DNA of 64,000 bases. Source: Cymbomonas tetramitiformis (taxonomy: Eukaryota; Chlorophyta; Pyramimonadophyceae; Pyramimonadales; Pyramimonadaceae). Location of the stretch: the NCBI GenBank assembly GCA_001247695.2, contig LGRX02033409.1, positions 62,001 to 126,000 of the forward strand, written 5' to 3'. A model generated the notes under the pieces. That model did no database searches and was not told where the DNA came from. It worked only from the letters and a program-made list of their open reading frames with translations. Position numbers and translations under genes: made by a program. The stretch's first letter is position 1, and each line of letters begins with the position of its first letter. This document shows positions 7,661 through 46,029 of this stretch, piece after piece.

Positions 7661-7958
7661 GGAACACTGGGTTTCGGACTTTGGGATGCATATCTCAAGT
7701 TGGAGTGCTTCGCGGATACAGGCAATTAATGCCAATTACCTTGCCTGCACGGACCACCTGGTCCCGTCCGTCATAGAAGCCTCCCTTTAACATGGGGATG
7801 CTGGACGGTTAGAGTACTGACCACAACGGGTGGGTTACTCTCACGAGTAGCACACCGGAAGTGGCCAGGCTCGAAAATCGTCCATCCCTTTCCACAAGAT
7901 TGGGGCCCGGTAGAGACCGGGGTGCGATTTTCGAGGAGCATTTCTCCTGAAAGGAAGA

Positions 7959-10646
7959 GTGCTCTGGTGTGGTTGTTGTCTCGAACAGGGACACGAGCCA
8001 AACTCAGCCCCACGGAAGGGATTGCTTTTCTTCGATGGTGCATGCCGCTTTAACGCATCGCCGGATTTGAGGCAAGCCTCGTTCGGGGTGGCACTCTGCT
8101 CAGAACAAGGTCAACAGTGGACCCGGGACTACGGACGCCTTGGATCCAAGACGAATAATTATGCAGAATTCGTGGGGGCCGTGATTGCAATCCAAAGAGC
8201 AATAGAATGGAACTTGACCACAGCAACAATTGTTGGGGACTCGGAGCTGGTGGTGTCAGCATTCTCGGGCTCCCGTAACGTTATCGCAAAAGACTTGGAG
8301 AGACTACTTATCGTTGGGAAAGCTCACATGGCCTTGCGCCCGGATTGTGTTTTCAATTTCAAGCATGTGGCACGGGACCACAATAAACTGGCTGACAGCC
8401 TGGCCAACTTCGCACTGGATTCTGGCATGCCGGCTACGACAAGTGTGAGAGACCCGCTTGCATTTATTACCATGGCAGTAAAAGGATTCGGCAGTGCCCG
8501 GGAAGTGATGGACAGGCAACAGTCCTTAGGGCCATGTGAAGCCCAAGGGCGGGACACCTTGGCCCCTTCAGTAATTGATGCCCTCAGTGGTAATTTGGTC
8601 CCGGACCCCCTTTCCGCACCAGCTAGGGATCCGGGGGAGTTCCGGGTGGGAACTATCCATGAGTGTACCCAGTTCTGGGACACGGTGGTAACATCATCAG
8701 AGATGGGATTGCTGGTCAAAGAATGGGCAAAGAATGGAGTCTCCATCTTGGATTTCTTCCAACACTTTTCAGGCACTTACGAAGGGGCTCGTTTCGACTC
8801 AAGAACACCCCCGAGGATGCAGTTCAAGAATCATGCGATCCCAGATCATTTGATCCCCTGGATCTCTGGGAAGATACAGGACGAGCTCAGGTGGGGAGCG
8901 ATAAGAGTCTGGGGCAAAGAAGGGGAATGCTCTCCCCCGCATCTTGTTATGCCGGTAGGAGTGGAGCCAGCCAAACCAAGAAAGATCAACGATGCAAGAT
9001 TCCTTAACCTTTGGTGTAAGGATATTCCGTTTACCTACGAGTCGGTGACAATGCTTCCACAAATCCTAGAGGTGGGGGATCCGGCATTTATTATGGACCA
9101 AGCGAACGGATTCTTCCATGTGATGCTTACAGAGGAGTCGCAACAGTACATGGGTTTCCTGTGGGATGGCGTTTATTACGTCTATACAGTTCTCAATTTT
9201 GGATGGAAGCTAGCGCCGGTCATTTATAGCGCCTTCGCGGGAGAATTCGCGGGATTCATCCGGCGGCTGGGGATACCATATTTATACTACATTGATGATA
9301 ATGCCGGGGGGCCGGCCCCAGTGGGAGCTTCAACTCTTACGAAACATGAAAGAGCCAAAATCTCGGCGTTCGTTGTCTCGTCATGCATGACGGCGGCAGG
9401 ATATTTTATTCATCTGGAGAAGACGGAGTTCATTCCGTCCTTGACCATCACCTGGCTAGGCATTGGTATTGACCTTGCGAAGCAGGAATTCTTCATCCCG
9501 CAGAAAAAATGGGATAAGTTCTTGAGCCTGGCAACGGACCTGCGAGCTTCGTCAAGTATTTCGGCCAGGGACCTGGAAAGAGTGGCAGGAAAGTTGGTTT
9601 CAATGTCAATCGCAGCCCCGGGCATCCTTATTGCATGCAGGAGGCTGTATGCCTTCCTGGCAAAGAGGCACGAATTCTGCAGAAAAAGTTTTTTCCTGAA
9701 CAGTAAGCAGATGAGGCATTTCAAACTCTACTTGGGTCAACTCTTCCAGCCGTCGCTGATTAAGGTGTCCGCATTCAGGAAGCAGGCCCACTGCTCGATA
9801 CTCGTGGATACAAACGTCGATGGTACAAAAGTCACGGCATCAATCAGAGCAGGGGAATTCCAAGATGAAATTTCGTGCTATCGAGATTTGAGAACCTGCT
9901 CGTCGGTGGATCAGTCAATTTTGATTTCTGAAGCCTTGTTCAAAATCCCAGTAGAACGGGTCCCGCAACGCTGGGACATAATCTTGGACAATAATATCTG
10001 GGATTCATCGAGAATCCTCTCGTCTAACCTGGGCGCGAAAGCATGCAAGGACTTGGCAGAAAAGCTCTATAGATTTGTCGCGGATAACAACTTGGAGCTG
10101 AAGGTGGTTTCCTTTTCAAGGGGACCTGATGGAACTATTGTAGTCCCGGATGAAGAGTCTCATTATTCATTAATGCCACGGTTCTCTCCTCTGTTGAACA
10201 TGATGTTTGGACGGCACAACATCGACTGCTTCGCAACAACGGCTAATGTTCGGGGATGTCCCAAAATGCGATTTTGCTCAAGGCTGCCAGAGAAAGAAGC
10301 TTGTGGCACCAATGTCTTTGCCTATCCACTAGCTGGACTGAACTGTTATGCTAATCCGCCTTTTGCATTAATGGGACCGTTCCTGATGTATCTTAGAGAA
10401 CAGAAAGCGTCAGCCTCTGTGGTTGCTCCACAGTGGGATGGTTTCTCTCCAGATGGGTTCTGGTGGACTACGTACAATAAGCTGTGCAAACAAAAGTTCA
10501 GAATCGCTGAAGTAGGAGAGGTCTGTTTCCAACAACTTAGAAATGGAAGATGGTCAGAAGCAGGCCCACTCCCGTGGGCAGTCTGGATTTTGAGATTCGA
10601 TTTTCTTAGAAACACTTCGTATTCCAAAAACACAAAATTCATGTGA
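7959..10646 (+). CDS. DIRS pol: RNase H - RT - RNase H - methyltransferase-like
   Basis: An uninterrupted frame of 895 residues without an early ATG, so translation probably enters by splicing or frameshift. In order: an N-terminal RNase H (LLFFDGACR, NYAEF, GDSELV, HNKLADSLANF) at about 23-158; RT at about 310-560 with MDQANGFFH and the catalytic YIDDN; a second, weaker RNase H at about 605-710 (LVDTNVDG, ISEALF, ILDNN); and a C-terminal domain with CFATTANVRG...NPPF, the DIRS-type Dam-like adenine methyltransferase region, at about 725-880. RT copies the element RNA. The early RNase H resembles the plant/archaeal-like type and looks like an acquired extra copy. No frameshift was found. Confidence 0.88.
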   Translation: MLWCGCCLEQGHEPNSAPRKGLLFFDGACRFNASPDLRQASFGVALCSEQGQQWTRDYGRLGSKTNNYAEFVGAVIAIQRAIEWNLTTATIVGDSELVVSAFSGSRNVIAKDLERLLIVGKAHMALRPDCVFNFKHVARDHNKLADSLANFALDSGMPATTSVRDPLAFITMAVKGFGSAREVMDRQQSLGPCEAQGRDTLAPSVIDALSGNLVPDPLSAPARDPGEFRVGTIHECTQFWDTVVTSSEMGLLVKEWAKNGVSILDFFQHFSGTYEGARFDSRTPPRMQFKNHAIPDHLIPWISGKIQDELRWGAIRVWGKEGECSPPHLVMPVGVEPAKPRKINDARFLNLWCKDIPFTYESVTMLPQILEVGDPAFIMDQANGFFHVMLTEESQQYMGFLWDGVYYVYTVLNFGWKLAPVIYSAFAGEFAGFIRRLGIPYLYYIDDNAGGPAPVGASTLTKHERAKISAFVVSSCMTAAGYFIHLEKTEFIPSLTITWLGIGIDLAKQEFFIPQKKWDKFLSLATDLRASSSISARDLERVAGKLVSMSIAAPGILIACRRLYAFLAKRHEFCRKSFFLNSKQMRHFKLYLGQLFQPSLIKVSAFRKQAHCSILVDTNVDGTKVTASIRAGEFQDEISCYRDLRTCSSVDQSILISEALFKIPVERVPQRWDIILDNNIWDSSRILSSNLGAKACKDLAEKLYRFVADNNLELKVVSFSRGPDGTIVVPDEESHYSLMPRFSPLLNMMFGRHNIDCFATTANVRGCPKMRFCSRLPEKEACGTNVFAYPLAGLNCYANPPFALMGPFLMYLREQKASASVVAPQWDGFSPDGFWWTTYNKLCKQKFRIAEVGEVCFQQLRNGRWSEAGPLPWAVWILRFDFLRNTSYSKNTKFM

Positions 10647-10713
10647 TATATTAATAAGCCTCCCATAGTAATCCGTTTACCCTGGAAAATAAATTGTTGA
10701 ACGCCTGTAACTT

Positions 10714-11900
10714 TTGGGGAAGGGGAAAATTTTGAGGATACAGGGTGGTGGCAAGAGCCTGTTGAGAAAATCCCCTGACTGGGCCGCCATACATCTAAGA
10801 ACGAAGGAGCTTCAGGAAGCAAGGGCCAGGGATGTGTACCAATCGGCCAAACTCCGAAATTTGCGGGCCCTCGGGGAATTCCTGGCTTGCATGACCCCAC
10901 CAGAATCATTGGATTCGTGTACAGCGCAACACATCTTATGGTATCTTATTTACTTGGAACAGTTCGGTAAGACTAACGTTCATTCGGCCACGTGCCCTCA
11001 ACTGGGAAGATGTAGTTGCCCAGTCAGGCAAGCCGCAAGTTCGGTGAATTCCCTTATCGGCAGACTCTCTAGTGCCTTCCAGGATTTCGGAAGGGGCGGG
11101 TCGGACAACCCGTGCACAGGTAGGGTGGTTAAGGTCTATGAAACGATGACCAGGAATGAACAGTTGCAAGCAAGAATCACCCCAAATCAGGCAACACCAC
11201 TTTTCAGTTGTACGATCGACAAGCTAGTGATTCACATGAACGCAGAGGCAGCTGGTTTTGCCTCGACACAAGATTGGATACTTTTGTTCATCACTCTTAG
11301 ATGTAAGGCAATGATCCTGATGGACTTATACGCTCTGAAGAGACCGGCGGAGCTGGGCGCCACAAGGGTGGAAGGGATCATAAGATTTCCCGATAACTCC
11401 GGTTTTCTCTTCAACTACCAGTGGGGGAAGACACTCCGTTCGGGCGATGAACACGTTTTCGGAATCAAAAGACTCCCTGATAAATCTAAATGCCCCATCT
11501 CAGCGTTGGAGGACTACCTCCAAGTGATGAAAAATTTGGGTTGAACCTTGCACAAGGATTCTTGTTCAGACCAGTCAGGTCTGGCAAAGTGGAAAATAGT
11601 CCGATTTCCAGGAAGCAGATGAATTCAGACCTCAAATGCTGGTTGCAAAAAGCGGGGCTGTTCAATGGGGAAACATTCTTCAGCATTCGGACAGCGGGAG
11701 CAATTGAACTTTTCCTTGAAGGAGCCGACCTGCAGCAGGTTATGGGACAGGCGTATTGGAAAACAGAGAGGATTGCTAGACATTATATGAAAGTGTGGCA
11801 AGTCTTGGGAATGTCATCCTCAAGGCAGGTAGAGAAAGTCTCGACGAAAGAATACATGGAGCTGAATGCGGCACAATCATTCGTGCGGGTATTTGTATGA
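10714..11900 (+). CDS. DIRS tyrosine recombinase, two overlapping frames
   Basis: The first frame (10714-11544) has no ATG near its start; a stop lies at 10708, and TTTTGAGGATACAG|GGT at about 10743 could be a splice acceptor. It contains box I LYALKRPAELGAT with the first catalytic Arg. The frame stops at 11542-11544. The -1 frame (through 11898-11900) continues with box II FSIRTAG, GQAYW and ARHYMKVW, giving the second Arg, a Trp in the place of the second His, and the nucleophile Tyr. The His of the usual HxxR is Phe here. It would integrate the circular DNA at the ACTGTTGA core. Either a -1 frameshift at 11532-11538 is programmed, or the copy is mutated. Confidence 0.8.
11532..11538 (+). 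promoter_or_regulatory. Candidate -1 ribosomal frameshift heptamer in recombinase
   Basis: The sequence A AAT TTG lies in the correct zero-frame phase (X XXY YYZ) two codons before the TGA. A -1 slip here joins the box I and box II halves of the recombinase. An indel in the A5 run at 11530-11534 explains the same pattern. Confidence 0.35.
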
Positions 11901-19569: not shown

Positions 19570-20270
19570 ATGATGACGTGTCATGTCATGCCATGTCATC
19601 ACGTGTGTTGTTCGGTTGTGAGGACTGAACCAGTCTCACAGGTATGCAAGCAAACACTTACAAGTAATATGGTGCTGGGACCATAGGGTGATATCGGATG
19701 ACTTTGTATAATATTGGATATTTCGTATATTTTGGGTGAACTTTCACTGTTTGAGGTTACAAGACACCAGAGGTTGGTGCCAATGTGTAACTAATTCTGT
19801 CAAAAACTGACATGAGAGCTTGTTCAGCTCTTCAAGTAGTAACATGTCGACTCGAATTCCCTCAGATCTCTCCGAATTCGACAGTCACAGTGCTCAGTCA
19901 CTTCATGTTCACATATCCTATGACCTGTCTTGTCATTTAGCCCTTGGGCTGCAGCTGCCAGTCATACAATGATCTCTGCTCTGATTTGCTGAATAATCAT
20001 AGATCTGATGATGTGGCAAGAACTGAGGCTCTCCTGGTTTCCCTCCAGTTATGTTTGGCTGTTTGGATATAAAATGGTTCCCCCCATTTCTGGAATGGTT
20101 TCCCACCAATTCTCTGAACCTGATCTGCTGTGGTTGCAGATGTTCAAAAGTCACATGCTGTCAGTCACCCTCGTCATACCTCTCGGTCATACTGGTGACT
20201 GTCATCGGTGCTGTCACTCGTCATTCTGACACGTCTGTCTCTCGTCTGACTCGCGATACACCCTAGTACA
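19570..20270 (-). repeat. Candidate 3' LTR of the gypsy element, with adjacent polypurine tract
   Basis: On the minus strand a polypurine tract AAAAGGGGGGGAGAGT (20271-20286) is followed directly by TGTACTAGGG (20270 downward), the classic start of a 3' LTR. The far end is uncertain; I place it near the palindromic GATGACGTGTCATG at about 19570. The matching 5' LTR is not in the window. Confidence 0.5.
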
Positions 20271-20387
20271 ACTCTCCCCCCCTTTTCGGCGCGCCTACGT
20301 CCTCGCTAGGCTGTCCTGCGTGCCCTTATGTACATAGTCAGGGGGGTTAGCATGCACTTTGTGACAAGATCGGGCTGCTAAGCCCTC

Positions 20388-20480
20388 GGTTCTTGGGTCC
20401 GTGCCCCCCAGTCCTCGGGTCCGGGTCCCCCTCTACGGTTCTTGGGTCCGTGCCCCCCAGTCCTTGGGTCTGGGTCCCCT
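20388..20480. repeat. 45-bp direct duplication
   Basis: GGTTCTTGGGTCCGTGCCCC CCAGTCC..GGGTC.GGGTCCCC occurs twice in tandem, in the 3' untranslated part of the gypsy element. Confidence 0.8.
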
Positions 20481-20565
20481 TCCGCAATCCGGGTTCGCCG
20501 AAGGCGCCTCACCGTCTCACGCTGCCAACGCTCATCAGGTTTGGCAACCCCGGCACTTCCCCAGA

Positions 20566-21705
20566 TCACGGGTCTTCCGCGGCCATTGCGCCCCGTGGCT
20601 GACCAGCCCCGGTATCTTGAAACTCGAACGTGTCAGTCCTCGCTGTCAGCGTCGAAATGAGGTTCATTACCGCGAGCGCGCTCTCCTCCTTCATGCGCTC
20701 GTTCAGCTTCAGCTCGCAAAACAGGTGGTGCAGCAACGCACGAGGTATCGCATATACCGCCTGGGCTGAACCCATACCGCGGGTGTTGGCCGAGGAGATG
20801 CCCCCCTGGGCAGTGTTCTCGTGCCTCCCTAGCATCGCTCGCGCAGGGCAGGGAGTCGTGTGGGTGCACAGCAACAAGGGTACCGAAGGCGCTGCATTTG
20901 TCCATATGTGAGTTGGCTTCATGTACGGTGTGCCATACTTACAATAGGTGGTCAACAGCGGCTCTGGCAGACCTTTCATTACGGCGCGCGTGTGCAACCC
21001 TCGCAGCGCGTCGCCAGCGGGGTTTTCTATGAAGAAATACGCAGGGTCGTAGAACTCGATGATCTCCCTGGTACGCCGCACGCGCCTGTCCGCCAGCTTC
21101 AGATCTGGAGCCCCCAGTGTCTTCGCCTTGCTGTACTCCTTGCAGGGGGGGCTGGCCCAGATGACGTCGAAATGATGTCGTGGGTAGAGCTTGTAGTTCC
21201 AGTGAAGGATGTCCTCCGTGCACGTGGCTTGCCACTTTGGCAGGATGTCCACTGTTACTACCTCGCAGTCCCTGAACTGACGTTGGAACTGCTGCTCCAC
21301 TGAGCCGGTACCGCAGAACAGCACCAAAATTCTAACTGGGTGCTGCACTCTCGAGAGGTGAGGCTGGTAAGCTCGGCTCTGGCTACTGCTGTGGACTGTC
21401 GGGGTTGGAGGTCTCATTGCCATCAACTGTGCCCTCTGCTCCTCCTGACCCTTGTGAGTCTCCCTTCGCCTTTTCTCTGGAGCCTTCTTCAACCTTTCCT
21501 CCTCAGCTTCGAAGACTCGCAGTGGTTCCAGCCTGCCCCCTCGCCCTTCCAAGTCCTCTCTGGTTCGCCACTGGCTGTGACTATGCGGCAGCCCTTTCCA
21601 TTTAGTTAGCCACTCCTGCACTGTCCCGCCAGCCTTCCCACCTAGCTTCCTGAAGCGAGTGCTGATGATGCGTTCCACCTCACGCTCCCTCTGACCCTCT
21701 ACCAA
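20566..21705 (-). CDS. Gypsy C-terminus: chromodomain plus cytosine-5 DNA methyltransferase
   Basis: An open 379-residue frame. Residues about 10-55 (VERIISTRFRKLGGK...QEWLTKWKGLPHSHSQWR) form a chromodomain as in chromovirus integrase tails. Residues about 125-340 are a C5-MTase: motif I LVLFCGTGSVEQQF, motif II-like TVDIL, motif IV WASPPCKEYSKAKT with the catalytic Cys after Pro-Pro, motif VI FFIENP, motif VIII-like YCKYGTPYMKPTHIWTN, and VYAIPRALLHHLF near the end. The wording of motif IV resembles phage and large-DNA-virus C5 enzymes. It would methylate cytosine in DNA. The frame is complete, unlike the rest of the element. It probably begins as a continuation of integrase at 21699-22811, in a different frame. 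Confidence 0.88.
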   Translation of the reverse strand: MVEGQREREVERIISTRFRKLGGKAGGTVQEWLTKWKGLPHSHSQWRTREDLEGRGGRLEPLRVFEAEEERLKKAPEKRRRETHKGQEEQRAQLMAMRPPTPTVHSSSQSRAYQPHLSRVQHPVRILVLFCGTGSVEQQFQRQFRDCEVVTVDILPKWQATCTEDILHWNYKLYPRHHFDVIWASPPCKEYSKAKTLGAPDLKLADRRVRRTREIIEFYDPAYFFIENPAGDALRGLHTRAVMKGLPEPLLTTYCKYGTPYMKPTHIWTNAAPSVPLLLCTHTTPCPARAMLGRHENTAQGGISSANTRGMGSAQAVYAIPRALLHHLFCELKLNERMKEESALAVMNLISTLTARTDTFEFQDTGAGQPRGAMAAEDP

Positions 21706-22960
21706 GACCGGTGGCGGTGCATTTCCTCTTGCCTGCTCACGAAGTGCTTAGCTCCCGACTGAACTGGGGTGAGCCGATCCGCTGTGAACACGTCGTGCAC
21801 CTTCCAATGCACGGGTAGCTCTAACCTGTACGCTGACGGAGCTCCACGGTCCTGCTCTGGCAGCTCTTGCTGCCTGTCGCTGTACAGACATTCTATTACA
21901 CGTAGGGGGCCGTGCCTGAGCTTGCGCAGTTTCGGCTTCAACCCCCGATCTCCAGGCAGAGTCAGGTGCTGGCCATCCACCCATACCTGATCATTCACCT
22001 TAATGTGCTGCAGCCGGTGTCGCGCGTCGAACTGCTCCACCATGCGCTGCTGGGCCATCTGCAGGTTCACCCGCGCTGCCTGTAGTTGCCGCGCAAACTG
22101 CTTGGCCAGCTCGTGCGCAGTCCCTCTCTTGTCCGCAGCTACTCGCCCACCTTTTCTTCGTCTTGACCCGCCTTCCAAAGCTGCGTCCATGAAGAAGTCC
22201 AGCTGCGTTGCTGGAGCGTGTCCGTACACCAACTCAAAGGGAGAGAATCCAGTCGCCGCTGACGTGGAGTCATTGATCGCGTACTCCACAGGTGTCACCC
22301 AGAGGTCCCAGTCCTCTTGGTTATCAGCAACATAGCAGCGCAGCATGCGCTCCACGGTGTGGTTGCTGCGTTCCGCTTGCCCGTCGCTCTGAGGGTGATA
22401 GGGAGTGGTGCTAGCTACCTTGACGCCCATCAGTCGCATGAACTCCTGAGTCATGGCGTCGCGAAAGTGGGGGTCTCGGTCACACACTATCTTCATTGGA
22501 GCTCCGTGCAATCGCCATACTGCGTCCATGAACAATCTTACCACCACTTCTGCAGAGCTGTCGTTGTAGGTCATTGGCACCACATGTACCATTTTGCTCA
22601 GCTTACAGGTGAAGGTAGTGAAGGCGTTCACTCCTCGCTGGGTCATCGGAAGCCCGGTACGAAGTCGATGCTGACAACCTCCCAGAGTCTGCTTGGCACT
22701 CGATGCGGTTGCAACAGTCCCATGGGATACCCCTGCCGCGGCTGGGTCTGCTGACACGTCACGCACGTCTTTACCCATTCCGCTATATCTAGGTCCATTC
22801 GCGGCCACCATAAACGTCTTCGGACCCGCTCCAGCGTCTTGTCCCTGCCGGTGTGGCCTGCGAACGGTGCCTCGTGAGCTTCTCTCAACACTAGCTCCCG
22901 CAAGGGCGAGTCCGGCGCCAGTACCACCTGATAGCGCCCTTCAGCCACTCTCCAAATGAT
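21699..22960 (-). pseudogene. Gypsy integrase, frameshifted
   Basis: Zinc-binding HHCC part at about 22700-22900 (REAHEAPFAGHTGRDKT..., CVTCQQ). The core has VVSIDF for the first Asp in one frame and then, after a frameshift near 22645, AFTTFTCKLSKMVHVVPM, IVCDRDPHF (second Asp) and GQAERSNHTVERML (Glu). The C-terminal part has GDRGLKPKLRKLRHGPLRV. It would insert element DNA into chromatin guided by the following chromodomain. The frameshift disables this copy. Confidence 0.88.
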
Positions 22961-23189
22961 GTCGCTTACCAGCCGGAAATGCTTTGTGCGATGATGCTGG
23001 GTGTTTAGCAGCTCCTGCTTCAGGGTTCTGAGATATTCGCTGCGTCTGTGCTCAGCTCTCAGCGCCCGCAAGAACACCCCTGGCTCCACTGTCCCCGACT
23101 TATCTCTGATCTTCGCTGCTGCTCCGGAGAGCGTGACTGCTGGTTGCGCTGTGGGTCTCTCGCGTGGGGCCAGCTTGCTGGGTGACTTC

Positions 23190-23695
23190 TGTGGCCTGGC
23201 TATCACTACTAGCACTGGCCATGGGACTGGCAGTTCCTGCAGAGCCGAGCGGTGACCGCTCTCCTCTCCAGGTGAGGTAAACAGTCTGTTGGGCTCACCA
23301 TGCTCGTTCACCCTTGGAATGACCTCCACGATCTCCAGGCCAAACTCGCGTAGCAACGGTCGCCAATTCGCCTGAGGGAAATCGGGCAATAAGAACAAGG
23401 CGGCTGTGTGACACGGGTCCTGCTTCGCCTCAGATGCGCAGTGTCGCAGAATGTCCTCAATGCTCACGTTGGGGTCTGAGAAGGGGGGGTTGCACCAGAC
23501 GATACGGCCCCTTCACTGCTCGTTCAAGCAATCAGTCCAGAATGTGCTCACCTGTCGATTCTGGCCCATAGCGTCACAGCACGCATCCACCTGGAACGGT
23601 CCTCCCAGTGCTCGAGAGTACTTGCTCTGCAGCCTAGCGAACTCCGAGGCGATCAACTTCCAATCCTGCTTGTCCACCAGCGGTCCTCCGGGTCG
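23190..23695 (-). pseudogene. Dam-like adenine methyltransferase domain between RNase H and integrase
   Basis: On the minus strand: DWKLIASEFARLQ, then FQVDACCDAMGQN...STFW, an in-frame TGA at about 23497, RGRIVWCNPPFSDPNVSIEDIL, and a hydrophobic FLLPDFPQANWRPLL strand. The order VDxx...F/W...VWCNPPF...LLP..W is that of the phage-type Dam N6-adenine methyltransferase family, with NPPF as motif IV. It lies where the polyprotein passes from RNase H to integrase. The TGA may be a mutated Trp codon. The domain is visible; enzyme activity is not shown. Confidence 0.75.
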
Positions 23696-24660
23696 GATCA
23701 TTGGACTTGATTGCTGCCGCTCTGCTACTGTCGCTGGCGGTTGTGCTGCTGGTTGCTGCGCTGCTGCTGATGGCTGCTGCTGCTGCTCTGCTGCTGGCTT
23801 CTGAGCTACTGTTGCGGGCGGCTGTGTTGGGGGTGTCTCTGACAGAACGGCTTCTGCATCCAAGGGAGACGCTGGGTCATCACCTGTTGCTGGTTGCTCT
23901 GCTGCTACCGCTCTAGTGGTTACGCCCGCGAAGACAGAGGCTGCCGCCATCGTGGCTACTGTGTCCATAGCGTCGCGCCACAGGTCGGGGGTCTCCGCCC
24001 ACCACAGTCCATTGAGCTGCATCAGCTTCCCTGTCACCACTGGAGGGCTCACTGGTGGGTGTTCCTCGTCCTCCTCATCTGATGAGCTGAACCCCGCATC
24101 CAAGGGAGAGCTAGGGTCCTCCTTCTCCACCTTCTTCTCTTCCACCGCTGCATTCACCTCAGCCTTGGCCTTGGGTACTTCCGCTGGTTTCCCCTTGGCA
24201 CCTGCTGCTCGCCTTCCGTCCTCAGCTGACACTGGCTGGTCGGTACTCAGGTCCACGTATCCTGCCTCCTTGAGCCCCTCTCTTGCTGAGGTTTGCACAT
24301 AGTCTGGTCGGCGAGAGGCCGCGTCCGGCACCACCAGCGTGCGCCCTGGCACGTGCTCCATCGCATGCACGCCCACCTCCACCAGGTCCTCGTACCACCT
24401 CGCTTGTCGCCTGCTGAGTTCCCGGCCTGGAGCGAAGAGCCACTTCAGCGGCGCGTGGTCTCCCATGAGTCGGAACTCCGTGAAGATAAGGTAATGCCTC
24501 CATTCATGTTTGAGTCGTGCAGTGATGAATCGCTGCTAACTCCCGTTCCCATGCATCTTGGTAATTTGGTTCCGCTGATGAGAACTGCTTGCTCTCGAAG
24601 GCGGTTGGCTGCAGGCCCTTCCCCAGGTCCTACATCAGTACCCCAGCCAGTGCCACCGCA
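23696..24660 (-). pseudogene. Gypsy RNase H and low-complexity linker
   Basis: RNase H begins in the RT frame (FVVQTDASAVALAGVLM), crosses a TAG at about 24640, continues AFESKQFSSAEPNYQ, shifts frame near 24510, and ends with MGDHAPLKWLF and VPDAASRRPDY. Then comes a 200-residue acidic, Pro/Gln/Ala-rich linker before the adenine-MTase domain. One stop and one frameshift inactivate it. Confidence 0.8.
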
Positions 24661-26813
24661 CTAGCGTCCGTCTGTACGACAAATGGGCTGGTGTCATCAT
24701 GAGCTGCCTTCTGATCTGGAAGGATCAACGTACTAGGGGCTGTGGTCAGCACGGTCTTCAACCGTTCGAACGCCCGCTCCTGCTCTGGGCCCCACTCCCA
24801 GGGTACTAAGTTCTTCGTCAGCTTGGTCAATGGGTGAGATAGATCGGAGAACCCCTGGATGTACCGGCGGTAGAAACCAGCCAGACCCAGGAACTGTCGC
24901 ACATGTTTGACAGTTTCCAGCTTGGGCCAATCCCTCACTGCTGCGACCTTGTCCTGCCGGGGTCGGCATCGTTCACGATCAATGACATGCCCGAGGAACC
25001 GTACAGAGCGCTTGAAGCACCGCAGCTTCGATTCCTTCAGCCGGACTTTGTTCTGACGACAGACCTCCAGCACCTGCTTCAAATGACCGAGGTGTTCAGT
25101 TGGATTCTTACTGAAGATCATGATGTCGTCCACGAACACCCTCACGAATGGGAGGTGTCCTAGGTAGCTCTGCATCATACGCTGCCAGCAAGAAGGACTG
25201 TTCGACAACCCCATGGGCATAACCAGCCACTCATAAGCTCCAAACGGCGTGGTCATTGCAGTCTTCTCGATTGCGTCCTCCTCCATGGGCACCTGCCAGA
25301 ATCCCCACAGAGCGTCCGCGGTGGAGAAGATAGTCGCCCCCTGTAGATCATCAATGAGAGACTGCACATCGGGAAGAGGATAACGGTCCTTTACGGTGAT
25401 TTCATTGATCTGGCGGTAATCAATCACTAGCCGTAGCTCCTTAGGATTCGAGGGCTTGGGTACCATCAAGCCTGGACTGCCCCAAGGTGAGGATGAGGGG
25501 CGGATGTAACCCTTCGCCAAGAGCTCGTCCAGTTGTCCACGAAGTTGTCGCAACTCCTCCATGGACAGCTTGTAGCACCTCTTATGTCGTGCGCCATCAC
25601 GGTACTCGGGGTCCACGCGCAGCGGCGATTTGTGGTCGCGGTCCACGACGCCCTTGGGGAGCTCCATGCCCACCACGTCCACATATGCCTTCTTTAGCTC
25701 CGCCAGCTCGTCCCATATCCATTGTGGGACCTCCTCAGCGTCTTCCTCATCAGGAGGGGTCGGCTGTGCTGGGGTCTGCTTGAGCTCGGCCTCACCGCTG
25801 CTCCGCTGCTTGGCCTCATCGTCCTCACCACGGCTCCGCTGCTCGGCCTTGTTGTCCTCACCACTGCTCCGCATCTGCTCAGCCGCCGTTACCACTGGAG
25901 CTGCAGTTGCTGGCGCGCGCCGTCTACGCCCTTTTCTCCTCGATGGAGCACTGCTATGCTCCCGCAACGCCTGCGCTGTCCTCCACAGTTGGTGAGCCTC
26001 ACTCTCCCGATCAGGCTCCAACCCGTCTGCGTGATCTTGCGCAGCATTTTCCCTGCGCTCTCGGGGTAACATCTGAAAAGCCTCCCATCGAGCTCGTACG
26101 GGGTATGGTCCCCAGTCCAGCACTGTCGGAGTGACAGAAGTGGGGCACGTCACCGGGCGCACCGCGCAGACTAGCTCCTGAGCTGCGTCGTCTGCGTCGA
26201 GATCCTCCGAGTCTGAGGAGCTGGTGTCCGAAGCTAGAGTTGTCATGCTTGCTGCCGTGCCATCGCTGTCCCCGTATTCCTCGCGTGAGGTCTCCTCCCC
26301 CCCCCTCAGGCTGGCGACGTCACACTCCGATGATGAAGAGGAGGAGGTCTCTGACAAAGCAGCAGCTGCTTCCAAGGGAGAGTTGGGGTCGTCGGAGGCT
26401 TCCGGCTTGAAGGTCCCGTCAGGCGCCAAGTACATGATGTAGGCCTCCTGCCCGCTGTTCTTCAGTGCTCGCAAGTCCTTCCTAGCTTGCTTGGTGCTGA
26501 TTAGCTGAGCCTCCACTAGGCTCATAGCCTGGCCCCTCTCCGAGTTCGAGGACCCCGGATTGCACCCCGCAATGACTACCTTCTGTGACCCATGGCCAAA
26601 CCGCACACTCCCATACTGTGCATAGTCAAAGGTGATCCGCCGCTGTGCTCGTAACCAGTCACCCCCCAGCACCACGTCCACACCCAGGGATAGAGGCATC
26701 ACTCGCAGAGTCACCTGTTTGGCATAACTTCCTTTCCGCGTCTCCGCTGTGAGCTTGGGCCGAATACAAGAGTTGGCGTCGCAGACTGTGCCATCTGCAA
26801 CCTGCACTCGCAT
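24630..26813 (-). CDS. Gypsy protease end and reverse transcriptase
   Basis: A 727-residue frame. The first ~70 residues complete the aspartic protease (LRVMPLSLGVDVVLGGDWL, the usual second flap/GxDxxLGxDWL strand). A long Ser/Asp/Glu-rich linker follows, with a basic KGRRRRAP patch. RT occupies about residues 415-650: RPSSSPWGSPGLMVPKPS, LRLVIDYRQIN, FSTADALWGFWQV, AYEWLVMPMGLSNSPS, catalytic FVDDIMIFSK, and thumb region VRQFLGLAGFYRRYI. This frame itself is intact. Start and end lie within the original Gag-Pol polyprotein, so the ATG at 26813 is probably not a real start. Confidence 0.9.
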   Translation of the reverse strand: MRVQVADGTVCDANSCIRPKLTAETRKGSYAKQVTLRVMPLSLGVDVVLGGDWLRAQRRITFDYAQYGSVRFGHGSQKVVIAGCNPGSSNSERGQAMSLVEAQLISTKQARKDLRALKNSGQEAYIMYLAPDGTFKPEASDDPNSPLEAAAALSETSSSSSSECDVASLRGGEETSREEYGDSDGTAASMTTLASDTSSSDSEDLDADDAAQELVCAVRPVTCPTSVTPTVLDWGPYPVRARWEAFQMLPRERRENAAQDHADGLEPDRESEAHQLWRTAQALREHSSAPSRRKGRRRRAPATAAPVVTAAEQMRSSGEDNKAEQRSRGEDDEAKQRSSGEAELKQTPAQPTPPDEEDAEEVPQWIWDELAELKKAYVDVVGMELPKGVVDRDHKSPLRVDPEYRDGARHKRCYKLSMEELRQLRGQLDELLAKGYIRPSSSPWGSPGLMVPKPSNPKELRLVIDYRQINEITVKDRYPLPDVQSLIDDLQGATIFSTADALWGFWQVPMEEDAIEKTAMTTPFGAYEWLVMPMGLSNSPSCWQRMMQSYLGHLPFVRVFVDDIMIFSKNPTEHLGHLKQVLEVCRQNKVRLKESKLRCFKRSVRFLGHVIDRERCRPRQDKVAAVRDWPKLETVKHVRQFLGLAGFYRRYIQGFSDLSHPLTKLTKNLVPWEWGPEQERAFERLKTVLTTAPSTLILPDQKAAHDDTSPFVVQTDASAVALAGVLM

Positions 26814-27061
26814 TGGTTTCTCATGGACTGATGGTTGAAGCTTGAGCTTTCTCGCAGTCTCTAAGGATGTGAAACTGGAGGAGGCGCCCCAGTATCGATG
26901 AGAACCTTCACTCGCACCTTACCAATCCATGCCCAGAAAATCATGAGTGTGGGCCCTGACGCGTCCATAGCGGCTAGCACGTGCTCGTCCAGCCATTCTC
27001 CCCAGCGTCCCGCCCCCGCGTCTATCGTCCGTAGCCTCATCCCATCGATGTCGTGCTGCAC
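26814..27061 (-). pseudogene. Gypsy aspartic protease, N-terminal part
   Basis: Contains VRVKVLIDTGA with the catalytic Asp-Thr-Gly. The frame is lost at about 26880 in GGGGCGCCTCCTCC; shifted by one base it continues SSSFTSLETARKLKL into the RT frame. A single indel therefore splits protease from RT. Confidence 0.8.
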
Positions 27062-27640
27062 GTCTCCTTACACGACGAACTTCATCCTCTGGCAATCTCA
27101 CGCTGCCATTGGACTTCAACCATCTGAGGCACCATGCATCGTCATGCACATCTCGATGCTTGTCACGGTCGGCCTGCTGTTCAGCCACACTGGCCATCAA
27201 GTCCGCGAATCTGGTGGTACACGCCAACCTGGGGAGTCTCATCTCCGCATCTTTGCCAGGCGGACTCCATGCAGGCACGTCAGCGCGCGCTGCTGGAGTT
27301 GCGCCCTCCTTCACGAAGTGGCTCTCGTGCCTCTGGCGATACTGCTCGATGGCGTAGAGCTGCCACTCCTTCTTCTTCTTCTTCTTGGTTCCAGCCTTCT
27401 GCCGCTGGGCCCCAATTGCCAATTCCTTCTGCACCTTTCTGCCCTTGTGAGCACATTATCTGCAGCTTCTCTTCCCACTCACGGTGGCTCATGGTCTTCG
27501 CCACCTGCTGAGTATATGCGTTCGAATTCTCAACCCATTCCGCCAGCAAAGCTTGTCTCTGCTGAAGGTCCGACCTCGCGTGGTCTGCCCAGTTGTTGTC
27601 TACAGCGATCGGCTGTCCTGGGGAATTCTCCGCCACTGGG
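27062..27640 (-). pseudogene. Gypsy gag-like remnant
   Basis: Two overlapping minus-strand frames: one contains SHREWEEKLQIMCSQGQ, the other a KKKKKK tract, QYRQRHESHFVKEGA and WCLRWLKSNGSVRL. The frames exchange near 27400. This fills the place of gag before protease, but no zinc knuckle is seen. It could equally be the tail of the upstream Dnmt-like polyprotein; the junction of the two gypsy pieces lies somewhere here. Confidence 0.45.
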
Positions 27641-28700
27641 GACTCCTCGCTGTGAGGAAGCCCCTTCCTGCTTGCTTCTGCGACTGCCATCAGCAGTTCC
27701 ATAGCCCTGCGATCCATGGCCAGGCCCAGAATGCTCGCCAATTCTACGTCATTCAGGCCATCGGCCATGCGTAGCTCACTTGCGCTGTAGCCCATGGCTC
27801 GCGCCTTCTCGTCGAGGTTCACTTCTCGGGATTCTTCCTCGGTGTCCTCATCGTCATGGTTGCGCACCACGGTGCCCATCCTTGCTCTTCTGAATGCTCT
27901 AGACCCTTGCGTCGCCATGATGGTGGGAAGAGCCCTTAGCGGTTCTCCCACAACGTTCACCACGTAGTGAGGCGCGCGGTCTGTTCTTATTACTGGTCTG
28001 GGCTGCCAGCCCTTGCATAGGATTGACGATACAACTCGTCCTTCTGGTCTCGCTACCTTGCTCATCACGGAGCGAAACTGATGGATCTGGAACAGGTTGC
28101 TTCAGTACGGTCGCAATCGATGTGCGTAAGCGCCTGCTTGTGCTGCATCAAAGGACACTGGTCGGCCAATGACGCTGGCAATGTACGGGAACACCTCGTC
28201 CCTGATCTTGGTCCGGGGTCTGTGCGACAATGGGGACACGTTCTCCAGGATGTATCCTGGGGGCCTCTGCTGCTGTAGCTGCTGCAGCGTGGACAGAAGC
28301 CGAACCACTTCATAAAATAATTTGCTGTGCCTGCCATCCAGGCCTGTAAGCGTTCCAGCAGGGGAGAGATCCTGGCATGGAAACCCACACACCATGACCC
28401 ACTGGCGTCCTTGAAGAGCTCCTGCCCGTATGAAATCGGCGCTCGTCGTGTCGTGCAGATCTTGGGGTAAGGCCCCAAATTCTATTGCACTGGGTGAGAT
28501 GAGGTCAGGATATCGTCGCAGCAACGCCGTGCACCTGGCTCTGGCCACTGTCTGACTGCTCGGTGATATGTCCTGATACAGGTACCGATCCACCTTCATG
28601 CCATTGCGGAGCAACATCTCCAGGCCAGCACAGAGGCCTCCACATGGCTCATAGCACACCACGCCTTCCTCTCGAGCTTGCGAGAAGAACTGCCTGCCCA
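27640..28700 (-). pseudogene. Dnmt-like cytosine-5 methyltransferase in gypsy polyprotein
   Basis: Motif I region VVCYEPCGGLCAGLEMLL, RYLYQDISPSS, motif IV WVMVCGFPCQDLSPAG with the catalytic Cys, GLDGRHSKLFYEVVRLL, motif VI YILENVSPL, HRLRPY, then an in-frame TGA at about 28110 and a target-recognition-like part (RPVIRTDRAPHYVV, ALPTIMATQGSRAFR). It ends with EKARAMGY...ILGLAMDRRAMELL, the motif IX/X type ending. It follows RNase H directly, where integrase is expected. The PCQ and ENV motifs are distinct from the viral-like C5 enzyme at 20566-21705, so the two were acquired separately. The TGA suggests a TGG-to-TGA change. Confidence 0.85.
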
Positions 28701-29149
28701 GCACCCTGGTGTCCACCTTCTCGGGCTTCAAGATGCGTTCGCCTTCAAAGTACTCATTGCTGTATACAGCGGGGCTTCCTTCGCCATGCGTGCCTCGTGT
28801 AGGTCGCACCAGGCTCAGCGCTTTCCAAGCCGCCCTCGCTAGCCTCCCAGAGTCGGTCACCAGCTCGGGTAGGTCTGTGTCGAACATGTCCCCATGATTG
28901 CACTCCAATTCCTCCTGGTGGTGCAAATCGAATAAACGATGCACTGGTCCCGTGCCCAGCTGCTCCACGGCAGCCCTCTTGCAGTAGTTGGCAACCTGCA
29001 CCTCTGGCGTGGCCTCTTCCCCTGGGGAAACATCCCCAGCCAGCATAAAGCACAGGTAGTCGCAGAAGTCCTTCGTGCAAACTTCCCCCACGCCTGCGTG
29101 AAGCGCAGTCACCTTTTCCCTCTCATGCCTTGCCCCAGTCTCGTCTGTC

Positions 29150-29958
29150 GTAGACGGTAGCGGGTAACGAGACGGCACGTCAGCGTTGCTGTTCTTGGCT
29201 CCTGGGCGATACTGCACCGTGAAGTCGAACTCCTGCAAGCTGATTGCCCAGCGCAGGTGCTGTCCCTGAAGATCAGCCTTCTCCATCAAGGTAGTGAGCG
29301 GTGAGTGGTCAGTAACCAGCGTGAAGTGAACGCCATGTAAGTACTACCTCAGCGTGCGCACTGGCCACACCACTGCAAGCATCTCACCTTTGAAGCTGGC
29401 GTACTGCCTCTCTGTCTTGCTCAAGGATCGACTGATTGCCATGCAGATGTACTCCTTCCCATCGTCATCCTTCTGGCCCAGCACTGCGTCAATGCCATAG
29501 GTGCTCCAATCGGTGTACAATATGAGGGGTCTGTCGTAATCGATAGGCCTCAGACATCTCCCAGAGCAGAGCGAGTCCTTCAGGTCCTGAAGCGCTTGAT
29601 CTTGGTCCTTCCCCCAAGCTCCCTTGATATCGGTAATCTCTTTCTTGAGCAGGTCGTTGAGAGGGCGGGCCATCTCAGAGTAATTCGGCCCCCCTGGCTC
29701 ACCCACCAAGCCCTTATAGTAATTCATCATGCCCAAGATGGAACGAAGCCCAGTCTTGTCCTGCGGCCTCGGAAGCTCCTGGATGGCCTTACAATTCGCT
29801 TCCTGTGCGCCAATGGAGTTATGCCCAATGCGGTAACCCAGAAAGTCCACCGTAGCTGCACCAAAGGTGCTCTTGCCTGCGTGCAGTCTTATGCCAGCGT
29901 CCCCCAACGTGCGCAACACGTCCTCAACGTCCTTCAGATGTTGCTCAGGCGTCAGCTT
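29150..29958 (-). pseudogene. Gypsy RT thumb and RNase H, truncated
   Basis: RT end (FGAATVDFLGYRIG, LRSILGMMNYYKGLV) then RNase H: ILYTDWSTYGIDAVLGQ, ICMAISRSLSKTERQYASFKGEMLAVVW, a TAG at 29344-29346, HGVHFTLVTDHSPLTTLM and the ADVPSRYP that closes gypsy RNase H. The TAG stands where this family usually has a residue such as His or Gln before YL.G. The RT palm with the catalytic Asps is absent, lost beyond 29958. Confidence 0.85.
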
Positions 29959-30310: not shown

Positions 30311-30989
30311 GTGAGTTTCAGGTAGAAATATTTGTTTATGAAATAGTGAGTAAAAACCATGTAGTAATAATTGTTCATAAAATAGGGAGTAAAAATTAGG
30401 CAGAAATAATTGTTTGCAAAATAGTGAGTAAAAAAGTTGCTCTTCTTTCCGCTCTACAAATCGTTGAGAGACTTAGAAAAAATAGCGAGTTTGAAGAGCG
30501 AAAAGAAGAGCAACCTTTTTACTCGCTATTTTATAAACAAATATATCTGCATGAATCGGGGAGAAATAATTGTTTATAAATGGTGAGTTTCAGGTAGGAA
30601 TATTTGTTTATAAAATAGTGAGTAAAAATCATGTAGTAATAATTGTTCATAAAATAGGGAGTAAAAATTAGGTAGAAATAATTGTTTACAAAACAGTGAG
30701 TAAAAAAGTTGCTCTTCTTTCCGCTCTACAAATCGTTGAGAGACTTAGAAAAAATAGCGAGTTTGAAGAGCGAAAAGAAGAGCAACCTTTTTACTCGCTA
30801 TTTTATAAACAAATATTTCTACATGAATCGGGGAGAAATAATTGTTTATAAATGGTGAGTTTCAGGTAGGAATATTTGTTTATAAAATAGTGAGTAAAAA
30901 TCATGTAGTAATAATTGTTCATAAAATAGGAGTAAAAATTAGGTAGAAATAATTGTTTACAAAACAGTGAGTAAAAAAGTTGCTCTTCT
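30311..30989. repeat. 272-bp tandem repeat, 2.5 copies, each with a long hairpin
   Basis: Units start with GTGAGTTTCAGGTAG at 30311, 30583 and 30855 (exact 272-base spacing); the third is cut at about 30989. Each complete unit contains an inverted repeat with arms of about 37 bases: AGTAAAAAAGTTGCTCTTCT in the left arm (about 30427) pairs with AGAAGAGCAACCTTTTTACT in the right arm (about 30506). The loop is about 40 bases. The structure suggests a foldback element amplified in tandem. Confidence 0.9.
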
Positions 30990-31056
30990 TAAGTCTCTCA
31001 ACTGCAAAGGCAAAGAAGTGCTTATTCTCGAGGAAAGCACGCATACTTTTTTGTGT

Positions 31057-31790
31057 CTGGCATTAATGTCAAAACTCAGCAAAAGCAGCGATCATTCTAG
31101 GAAAAAGAGTTGATCCCGCCTGTTTTGACATTAATGTCAAAACTCAGCAAAAGCAGCAATAATGCTAGGAAAAAGAGTTGATCCGGCCTGTTTTGACATT
31201 AATGTCAAAACTCAGCAAAAGCAGCAATAATGCTAGGAAAAAGAGTTGATCCGGCCCGTTTTGACATTAATGTCAAAACTCAGCAAAAGCAGCAATAATG
31301 CTAGGAAAAAGAGTTGATCCGGCCCGTTTTGACATTAATGTCAAAACTCAGCAAAAGCAGCAATAATGCTAGGAAAAAGAGTTGATCCCGCCTGTTTTGA
31401 CATTAATGTCAAAACTCCGACGCAGAATCAGCAAAAATGCTAGGAATAAGAGTTGATCCCGCCTGTTTTGACATTAATGTCATATGTCAAAACTCAGCAA
31501 AAGCAGCAATAATGCTAGGAAAAAGAGTTGATCCGGCCTGTTTTGACATTAATGTCAAAACTCAGCAAAAGCAGCAATAATGCTAGGAAAAAGAGTTGAT
31601 CCCGCCTGTTTTGACATTAATGTCAAAACTCAGCAAAAACAGCAATAATAAGAGGAAAAAGAGTTGATCCCGCCTGTTTTGACATTAATGTCAAAACTCA
31701 GCAAAAGCAGCAATAATGCTAGGAAAAAGAGATGATCCCGCCTGTTTTGACATTAATGTCAAAACTCAGACTTCTGACATTAATGTTAAA
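31057..31790. repeat. 68-bp satellite built on a 20-bp perfect palindrome
   Basis: About 11 copies of a unit containing TTTTGACATTAATGTCAAAA (self-complementary) followed by CTCAGCAAAAGCAGCAATAA and GCTAGGAAAAAGAGTTGATC. Copies begin at about 31122, 31191, 31259, 31327, 31395 and on to 31744. Occasional units have small indels. Confidence 0.93.
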
Positions 31791-31794
31791 ACAT

Positions 31795-32748
31795 TCGCTC
31801 CAAAGATCTTTGCGAAAGCTTTGTCTTCTTTTCAATGCTTTCAGAGTTTGCATTTGCGCAAAGATCTCTGCTTCAAAGATCTTCGCGCAAGCTCAACCCC
31901 TCTTTAATTTGTAAAGAAATATTTGCGCAAAGTCGAGTTAGCTCCAAAGATCTTTGCGCAAGCATGTCTGCTTTTCAACGTTTGAGTTGGCAAATTTGCG
32001 CAAAGATCTTTGCTTCAGAGATCTTAGCGCAAGCTCGAACACTCTTTAATTTGTAAAGAAATATTTGCGCAAAGTCGAGTTAGCTCCAAAGATCTTTGCG
32101 CAAGCTTCGTCTGCTTTTCAACGTTTGAGTTAGCAAATTTGCGCAAAGATCTTTGCTTCAAAGATCTTAGCGCAAGCTCTGAGAACTACTCTTTAATTTG
32201 TAAAGAAAACTTTGCGCAAGCTCCGTGTACTCATTAATTGCTAAAGTAAACTTTGCGCAAAGTCGAGTTAGCTTCAAGATCTTTGCGCCAGCTTCAAATG
32301 CTTTTTAATAATGTTTAAGGTAATATTTGCGCAAAGATCTTTGCTTCAAAGATCTTTGCGCAAGCTCGAACTACTCTTTAATTTGTAAAGAAATCTTTGC
32401 GTAAGCTCCGTGTACTCATTAATTGCTAAAGTAAACTTTGCGCAAAGTCTAGTTAGCTTCAAGATCTTTGCGCCAGCTTCAAATGCTTTTTAATAATGTT
32501 TAAGGTAATATTTGCGCAAAGATCTTTGCTTCAAAGATCTTAGCGCAAGCTCGAACTACTCTTTAAGATGTAAAGAAATCTTTGCGCAAGCTCCGTGTAC
32601 TCATTAATTGCTAAAGTAAACTTTGCGCAAAGTCGAGTTACTAGCTTCAAGATCTTTGCGCCAGCTTCAAATGCTTTTTAATGTTTAAGGTTATATTTGC
32701 GCAAAGATCTTTGGACCAAGATCTGTGCTTCAAAGATCTTTACGTAAA
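31795..32748. repeat. GATCTTTGCGC satellite, palindrome-rich, about 190-bp higher-order unit
   Basis: Built of TTGCGCAAAGATCTTTGC (self-complementary core GCAAAGATCTTTGC) and TTTAATTTGTAAAGAAAT blocks. The longer phrase from GCTCCGTGTACTCATTAATT to TTAAGGTAATATTTGCGCAA recurs near 32220, 32405 and 32590. The intact LTR element is inserted at the right edge. Confidence 0.9.
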
Positions 32749-45700: not shown

Positions 45701-46018
45701 TTTTTGTAGGTTTCCTTGCATCCAGTGGTCAGGTGGCAGGAAGGTGAACTGCCCTTCCTTTATCTCAAGCAGCTCGTGTACCCTGTATCCCATGTGCTTG
45801 TTCAGCAGTTTTCTATACGGGCTTTTGGCATATGTGGGGTATATCCCTACCCCCAGGACGGGTTCTGCTGTTTTTGTGGAGTTAATTGCCTTTTTCAGTG
45901 CCTTATAGAGGTCCCCTGCTGTATACTCCGGGTTAAATTGGTATGACCCCAGTTTTTCCCATTGCTCCTCCCATGCCGATCCTACAGCCCCAAATACCGA
46001 GTCTCGTGGGTGGGAATA
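42785..46018 (-). mobile_element. 5'-truncated non-LTR retrotransposon with RNase H and restriction-like endonuclease
   Basis: The target duplication AAGCGTTTTCA occurs at 42774-42784 and 46019-46029. The minus-strand body is one open frame ending at 42869, followed by a short 3' tail with stem ACACCCTGTCCAAGGGTGT and a T/C-rich (TTTTTC)n terminus. The missing 5' side would have held the RT. Domains fit the RLE-bearing clade with RNase H (Dualen/RandI-like), as an inference. Confidence 0.85.
42869..46018 (-). CDS. Non-LTR ORF2 C-terminal part: RNase H, coiled coil, CCHC, PD-(D/E)xK nuclease
   Basis: About 1,049 residues open to the truncation point; the frame has no true start because the element is cut. 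RNase H at about 325-470: YTDGSQRK, NRAELTAIYMAL, CTDSLTSL, VKAHVGIHGNEMADEVAKKA. Then about 250 residues of Glu/Gln-rich coiled coil with a KRQKRRRTRS basic patch. A Cys/His cluster CKCCGMP...HVLGGC (about 830) is followed by VDIVMLEGTE...HLIEVTYTDEMSW...KYTKYTPL near 930-985, which fits the restriction-like endonuclease seen in R2-type elements. The enzyme would nick target DNA to prime reverse transcription. RT is absent, so this copy is dead although the frame is unbroken. Confidence 0.8.
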   Translation of the reverse strand, partial: YSHPRDSVFGAVGSAWEEQWEKLGSYQFNPEYTAGDLYKALKKAINSTKTAEPVLGVGIYPTYAKSPYRKLLNKHMGYRVHELLEIKEGQFTFLPPDHWMQGNLQKPKQCNWNMRILIVANAAGWRKYCPDALKTHDIFSKALLKCPQSKVRTIGRACYMHRPLTLRDADRRPTSITEWEKDCVIDPAPWTNHELPVMQAMPSEHLENHTEEIIDRWMEDRKKEGEHRGGDRGPRPTTMDVLRANTTWSREEINRDALRRWALQFTGPDTTEEDINRDQWLQWERGEIEKAELPPESRWDNHGKGYPEPHRRHNKNDMVYTDGSQRKVKKENGEVEEVTAAGVWDPRGGRAASHMQRWTRRCQTVNRAELTAIYMALTLDSNSGKEKVSICTDSLTSLYQIQNMKRRPHMLERHVHRDILWKTLKQIQMLNLEGTKVALYKVKAHVGIHGNEMADEVAKKACEEGEYSLNHDNTDTMMLLAICEATGRQLEGHQAILNHVTKKVREAKMTGETNIIQRLKRKLETGPEKWETKRQRIERMEAEYAQKSREPTEIEIVEAWADTWPDEPEWQQEQEEELELQWMERQGEEALIQEQQVQTVQQAKQKRGHGQENTREVGLSKDEAEETRTILKEEALGQGKRQKRRRTRSQTEPDQPALREVEGQREVQGEAARGPTQELKLPEAQNKGMTTQQDTAAELSEMAQQQEEAQEEWRALQEMVQQQEAAQKEAYQEREWRRNSIEKILTATREKPEKYMQHLKGDKAMHKLSNEYWKKGTEYLNEHDVTVLLRCRANKLPAGPYKKQQGGGRAQKCKCCGMPRQVNAGGFIRTAHVLGGCTEREIKNMVISRSDETTKMIAKAISKGRKGGCVIRTHAGKKGKGMNNGRPIEDFLLTRGQCRLDGRNTPAPEHGKDTIPHYVDIVMLEGTEKGNEQPGYTHQKAMAEAGHIHLIEVTYTDEMSWEEALKTKYTKYTPLVKLLELYGYKVTLHVMVFGNTGTIYEHTEKILTKHLGFDKQEALHLLKKIHDLATGYAVSLNRLYRKKVDKEPD

Positions 46019-46029
46019 AAGCGTTTTCA

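Follow-up and report, generated by a model that had tools for sequence, protein, structure and literature searches.

A decayed Ty3/gypsy retrotransposon of Cymbomonas tetramitiformis and its intact relatives carry a putative adenine-type and a cytosine-5 DNA methyltransferase domain in pol

Introduction

Cytosine methylases have been described in long interspersed nuclear element (LINE), DIRS and gypsy retroelements, and Dam domains in DIRS elements (PMC5890265, PMC6338049); retrotransposon-encoded DNA methyltransferases (DNMTs) methylate CG de novo (PMC5890265). Here we describe a Ty3/gypsy long terminal repeat (LTR) retrotransposon that combines predicted domains of both kinds, located in a 64,000-nt stretch of the genome of the green alga Cymbomonas tetramitiformis (contig LGRX02033409.1, positions 62,001 to 126,000; hereafter the window, with position 1 as its first letter). 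In its pol, a putative adenine-type (Dam) domain lies between RNase H and integrase, with a cytosine-5 (C5) methylase domain located after a chromodomain. What appears to be new here is the pairing of both predicted chemistries in one retroelement, each having been known separately before. Methylation is usually something done by hosts to transposons; here the element itself encodes two kinds of it, both apparently constrained.

Among the described systems, KnitGypsy-Dnmt3 of Klebsormidium nitens is likewise a Ty3/gypsy pol with a cytosine methylase, present in several copies in an algal host (PMC5890265). While its enzyme clusters with eukaryotic Dnmt3, the C5 domain described here appears nearest to viral-type enzymes; furthermore, C5 in our family follows a chromodomain and is joined by a second, Dam-type domain, whereas PMC5890265 nowhere uses the word chromodomain and, in its accessible text, mentions adenine methylases solely in connection with DIRS. 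Retroelement cytosine methylases are also known from Symbiodinium (SymbioLINE-Dnmt and SymbioDIRS-Dnmt3), but these belong to LINE and DIRS rather than Ty3 elements and are each described with one chemistry (PMC5890265). DIRS elements with a Dam-like domain also carry it in the polyprotein, yet use a tyrosine recombinase and not a DDE integrase (PMC5890265, PMC6338049); our element is not of the DIRS type, as both the window copy and the complete copy described below carry H2C2 and rve integrase domains. One passage of PMC6338049 refers, in loose terms, to Ty3/Gypsy- and DIRS-clade elements that encode DAM and DCM. In C. tetramitiformis itself, scaffolds with >10,000x coverage and homology to chromodomain, RNase H and cytosine methylase have been reported and considered retrotransposon-related, with neither element structure nor adenine methylase in the accessible description (PMC5741210). 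Finally, self-modification has also been proposed for algal DNA transposons with ParB and an N4C/N6A methylase, but these are Sola1 elements with one methylase in a separate gene; the same paper covers ParB-methylase in Sola1 transposons alongside chromodomain gypsy elements (PMC12477816). The accessible parts of PMC12477816, PMC12440569, PMC12220804 and PMC3350952 describe no two-methylase element. A sequence-only reading of the window had known of no description of an element with both chemistries and a chromodomain between them, and we likewise found no element with both among the titles and opening abstract lines listed from an open-access library, which leaves subscription papers and repeat databases outside the comparison.

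Results

The window copy

The window copy is a decayed chromodomain Ty3/gypsy LTR retrotransposon with two methyltransferase domains in pol. It lies on the minus strand, as do all its features below, at ~19607-27022, is 5'-truncated and is disrupted by stops and frame changes. The sequence-only reading had claimed this element type, strand and order (Dam-type domain between RNase H and integrase, C5 methylase after the chromodomain), and motifs and order are as it said; of the span that it gave, 19570..27640, nothing in the intact family matches the part at 27022-27640.

The 5'-most stretch resembling the intact family (25963..27022) is 80.6% identical to the complete copy C261, the similarity ending at 27022, and the identity is 92.4% over 25751-20566. 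The first of the open reading frame (ORF) pieces (24630-26918) holds a degenerate aspartic protease (26649..26888; PF13975/PF08284 below cut-off here and above it in C261), the reverse transcriptase (RT; 24981..25463, PF00078 (RVT_1) 114.5 bits) and the start of RNase H, which is split into two pieces (24380..24794; PF17919 29.6 against a cut-off of 29.8, PF17917 28.7 against 24.8). The second piece (23513-24535) continues with the C-terminal part of RNase H and the first half of Dam, containing the VDACCD motif (23516..23647); the third (22643-23512) contains the second half of Dam with VWCNPPF (23195..23512; phrog_111, E 0.0017) and the integrase H2C2 zinc-binding domain (22736..22912, PF17921 82.3 bits). 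The fourth (21699..22940) encodes the integrase core (rve, 30.1 against 32.6) and an SH3-like domain (20.9 against 30), and the fifth (20566..21747) the chromodomain (21544..21681; PF00385 34.2 bits against 25.1, PDB matches to CHD1/HP1) and the C5 domain (20719..21336, ORF residues 138-343; LFCGTGS, SPPCKEYS, FIENP), for which Pfam DNA_methylase scores 23.2 against a cut-off of 22. A polypurine tract (PPT), GAAAAGGGGGGGAGAG (20272..20287), directly precedes the 3' LTR (TTGTACTAGG ... ACCGAACAA; 19607..20271), which is 88.3% identical to the 5' LTR of C261; C261 has a similar tract in the same place. Compared with C261, the 5' LTR and gag are missing, and because of this 5' truncation a search inside the window only found no LTR pair.

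Intact copies and a complete element

We scanned the genome holding the window (851.7 Mb, 25,745 contigs) with the window C5 ORF and scored the best 105 of 9222 first-look candidates. The scored copies are 96-100% identical, only 5 of the 105 have an internal stop, and 23 have an open frame of 2485-2490 codons (counted by eye); here, as in the two family scans below, the scored copies are the top-scoring subset of thousands of candidates, which biases them toward intact frames. Ten copies fetched for having such frames each contain a single frame of 2488 or 2489 codons and are 99.1-99.8% like C261 over up to 9.8 kb.

Upstream extension of two intact copies yielded the 5' LTR in one, C261, and so a complete element of 14,855 bp. 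Its LTRs (640 nt) are 99.84% identical, with one differing site, and it is flanked by a 4-bp target duplication (AAAT/AAAT). It has a sequence resembling a primer-binding site (PBS), TGGTATCAG, which we take to be initiator-Met-like, a PPT, CAAAGGGGGGGAGAG, and a gag frame that bears a CCHC motif and overlaps pol in another frame. Its pol (L207) is one frame of 2488 aa with protease, RT, RNase H, Dam, H2C2-integrase, SH3, chromodomain and C5, in that order. The Pfam matches follow the domain order, except for ties of related models, with Dam (27.8 against 28.1), rve (31.1 against 32.6), SH3 and DNA_methylase (20.0 against 22) below cut-off. C261 thus shows the hallmarks of a Ty3/gypsy element: two LTRs, PBS, PPT, target duplication, CCHC gag and the order protease, RT, RNase H, integrase. 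The integrase of a relative, P0120, matches Ty3 Gag-Pol (7q5b, E 4.5e-39).

The same order in other families and in a distant marine element

Using the related protein P0122 as a query, we found that all 46 scored copies (the best 46 of 20,033 candidates) cover the Dam-to-C5 stretch (residues 1-993) with 96-97% identity, and 43 are stop-free. With P0105, a query covering Dam only, 113 of the 117 copies scored (the best of 7393 candidates) are stop-free, with frames of up to 2577 codons. One copy of the P0105 family has an unbroken 1178-codon stretch running Dam-H2C2-rve-chromo-C5; Pfam DNA_methylase is absent from it at E 0.01, yet the motifs are present and its C5 is 85% identical to that of C261. 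The Dam/C5 order is therefore common to three families of the C. tetramitiformis genome.

The single genome-contig scan gave five loci, four of which matched part of C5 alone (query residues 771-885). Contig NHEN01000032.1, binned in a marine bacterial metagenome-assembled genome, carries an unbroken 1325-codon frame with RNase H-Dam-H2C2-rve-SH3-chromo-C5. In this marine element (L161) Pfam scores lie below cut-off for Dam (27.4), SH3 (29.2) and rve (22.2), and the C5 assignment comes from alignment and tree. Elsewhere on the contig are the end of a CCHC gag, a protease and an RT, and the two contig ends overlap by 106 nt at 98%; we infer a circularly permuted complete element of a eukaryote, probably mis-binned. 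Identity to the window family is 57% for RNase H, 41% for Dam, 43% for integrase, 40% for the chromodomain and 48% for C5, so the divergence appears to be of similar depth across the parts. Separately, positions 4307-9862 of L161 hold a gag-like frame of at least 1852 codons without a Pfam match, the continuation of which carries the CCHC knuckle.

Copies with the same order in undamaged frames, which the sequence-only reading had named as the check on its proposal, are thus found: 23 of the 105 in the window family, two further families and the marine element. The window copy is broken and adjoins another methylase-bearing retroelement fragment, as might be expected if one methylase had been inserted secondarily into a damaged copy; for either methylase this is refuted by the unbroken two-methylase frames in other copies, three families and a distant element, and we give such an artefact practically no weight.

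The C5 domain

The C5 assignment has the motif IV Cys, the motif VI Glu and the C5 fold behind it. S-P-x-C and E-x-P are invariant in 62 aligned C5 proteins, in which S199, P200, C202, E241, P243, C269, K277, C294 and P335 never vary. The structure model has a predicted local distance difference test (pLDDT) score of 82.7, and all 50 PDB fold matches listed are C5 methylases (11-19% identity). Dnmt3 structures come first in the Foldseek ranking (11-16% identity), and a PDB profile search returned Dnmt2, Dnmt1, bacterial and a few other methylases, with no Dnmt3 among its 42 matches; a Dnmt3 origin of the domain is thus still conceivable. PHROG 757 and 363 match the window C5. The Pfam profile detects the window domain, as noted above; in C261, L161, L221 and P0126 the assignment relies on alignment, motifs and tree.

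C5-related proteins numbered 99 in one search and 138 in another (the best 120 of the 138 are listed), and the named relatives are CYMTET proteins of C. tetramitiformis. Among viral structures, the C5 model is matched best by a putative cytosine methylase from Tetraselmis virus 1 (TM 0.86 by target, 36% identity), and the comparisons suggest that the closest non-element kin among those found are viral-type enzymes.

The fragment adjoining the window copy (27280-29958, minus strand) is a different Ty3-type element, in which RT/RNase H precede a C5 methylase of the classic PCQ/ENV kind (PF00145 40.8 bits; PDB matches HaeIII and DNMT3A); at the DNA level it does not match the fetched copies of the window family.

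The Dam-type domain

The Pfam run on the window ORF pieces lists no Dam; an in-frame stop splits the domain into two pieces here. The halves lie in the same frame, and both match a hidden Markov model (HMM) built from the intact relatives (E 6e-16 for the first, 1.4e-33 for the second), so that, of the two profile searches that the sequence-only reading had proposed, that for C5 succeeds and that for the window Dam fails with Pfam and succeeds with the relatives' HMM. PF05869 exceeds its cut-off of 28.1 in seven of eight intact Dam-bearing protein relatives (P0102, P0103, P0105, P0108, P0115, P0122 and P0155); below it are P0126 (24.5) and, by a small margin, three elements read from DNA, namely L161 (27.4), L221 (26.1) and, as given above, C261. 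The similarity to PF05869 is confined to the first half of the profile. NPP[FY] is retained in eight of nine proteins listed by motif pattern and in four aligned elements. We regard this part as a putative adenine-type DNA methyltransferase. P0155 is a more divergent Dam-integrase-chromodomain protein of 779 aa with no C5 in that length, though its 2475-nt contig may end there.

Elsewhere in the window, at 7914-11544 (plus strand), a DIRS-like ORF with RT and RNase H precedes one that encodes an ALOG domain. A YANPPF motif is seen in the DIRS-like ORF by eye only and has no profile support: the Ty3-Dam HMM does not match this ORF at E 1.

Selection and a possible function

Synonymous sites have reached saturation between C261 and the P0105 family (proportion of synonymous differences, pS, 0.84 for Dam and 0.81 for C5), with low nonsynonymous values (pN): 0.13 for Dam, 0.05 for integrase, 0.04 for the chromodomain and 0.08 for C5. 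Among the ten near-identical copies the synonymous to nonsynonymous counts are 5:1 for Dam, 15:9 for C5, 12:3 for RT and 13:4 for integrase. These patterns suggest that both Dam and C5 are under purifying selection.

Our preferred reading, to which we give a probability of about 0.5, is that a two-methylase pol lets the element methylate its own cDNA with both chemistries. The polyprotein would be packed with element RNA and cleaved by the element protease; during double-stranded cDNA synthesis by RT and RNase H the Dam part would methylate adenines, and the integrase-chromodomain-C5 part would methylate cytosines on the cDNA or at the insertion junction. The marks on the new copy might then make it pass for host DNA or protect it against nucleases and other defences. 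The positions of the two domains, with Dam next to RNase H and C5 at the integrase-chromodomain end, are consistent with enzymes that encounter the cDNA.

A number of observations weigh against this reading, in addition to the bias toward intact frames. The polymorphism counts are small, and the C5 ratio (0.19) is higher than that of RT (0.07). GATC is not depleted in pol (26 against 26.2 expected), CpG observed/expected is 0.70 with no measured background, and, in a substitution-spectrum comparison looking for deamination, C>T is higher at CG than at CHH in 12 of 17 copies, a weak and unpolarised signal, with A>G often higher. As to C5, the domain is short (~205 residues), the Pfam profile falls below cut-off in C261 and does not list L161, L221 or P0126, and motif VIII, which is QxRxR in C5 methylases, is replaced by K-x-T, which reads KPT in the window and has an invariant K, with T present in at least 90% of rows. 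As to Dam, the structure model is of low confidence (pLDDT 57.7), its top fold matches are cap-specific adenosine methylases (two with E < 0.001), a PDB-sequence profile search found no adenine DNA methylase among its 8 matches, and SPPS replaces NPPY in P0126, so Dam can decay or be lost; P0119, P0120, P0125 and P0127 stop short of the region upstream of integrase and are silent on Dam.

The deviating motif VIII and the degenerate P0126 motif, along with a lower identity between two families in Dam (79%) than in integrase (92%), are what one would expect if one or both methylases were non-catalytic and had a DNA-binding or structural role in the polyprotein. The invariance of S-P-x-C and E-x-P and the retention of NPP[FY] in all but one of the listed proteins speak against such a role, which we judge rather improbable.

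Somewhat less improbable, but still unlikely, is that the methylases, brought to the insertion site by integrase and chromodomain, modify host chromatin there rather than cDNA, giving new copies silent or tolerant surroundings. The chromodomain is C-terminal to integrase in the window copy and C261 (it is by this position only, and not by RT-tree clade, that we use the word chromovirus), and C5 comes after it in the scanned members. With aromatic-cage positions presumed from HP1, three aromatics occupy the cage-like columns in 10 of 19 usable relatives (the chromodomain pattern matched 21 of 24 proteins, and P0018 and P0117 are out of register). The window family, however, has R/W/L in these columns, another point that counts against our reading; and Dam precedes integrase, far from the chromodomain end. 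The sequence-only reading had suggested chromatin-directed integration: the chromodomain is there, but the targeting is made less likely because only one of three cage aromatics is kept.

With such an element, abundant in an algal genome, it becomes directly testable whether a retroelement gains from methylating itself; equally testable is whether 6-methyladenine (6mA) and 5-methylcytosine (5mC) of algal genomes are partly written by parasites.

Shared history and viral relatives

The C5 tree comprised 58 hand-picked rows: 24 Ty3 proteins, 19 solo proteins, 14 of 80 viral loci and the window. In it 23 of the 24 Ty3 rows and the window fall in one clade (support 100/93) together with three solo proteins, and grouping the 23 Ty3 rows with the window is not rejected (approximately unbiased test, p-AU 0.3). 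In a quick integrase tree, with rows drawn from the best 120 of 138 related proteins, one set (SH-aLRT 95) comprises 14 of 15 C5-labelled rows, the window, the Dam-bearing P0155 and four other rows; P0007 and P0128 are labelled plain there, though they carry C5 motifs. P0133, a Ty3 protein whose C5 belongs to the window's C5 family, falls outside in the integrase tree and perhaps represents a second C5 acquisition. The Dam tree sets 30 viral-contig rows against a group of 10 Ty3 rows (90/83), with long-branch warnings, and the position of the DIRS row, with a branch length of 10, is meaningless. The viral-contig scans kept 80 loci of 548 and 80 of 85, with matches that cover methylase parts. 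A single origin of the methylase-bearing lineage would be the simplest reading of these trees, not a proof.

The element connects retroelement enzymes with phage and giant-virus enzymes. For retroelement methylases in general it has been proposed that they are weapons or shields against giant viruses or other elements, to the host's profit (PMC6338049). The Tetraselmis virus 1 match and the nesting of three solo proteins inside the Ty3 C5 clade would suit this idea; nothing here ties the element to virus resistance, and the similarity may merely record a gene swap, which makes it a quite improbable explanation of our element. A broader version of self-methylation of cDNA, which we put forward tentatively and consider possible but doubtful, is that a whole clade of marine-eukaryote chromodomain LTR retrotransposons has a 6mA/5mC-type kit of viral origin in pol, perhaps swapped with giant algal viruses, and that the dual cDNA mark would enable very high copy number.

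Other features of the window

A 1068-codon frame with an RNase H domain lies at 42869-46075 (minus strand). A stretch of low G+C at 30311-31907 contains repeats in both direct and inverted orientation, with periods of 68 nt and 272 nt. Chlamydia Pmp-like repeat ORFs are found at 52401-53330 and 61103-62581 (both minus strand), the second of which is also beta-helix-like.

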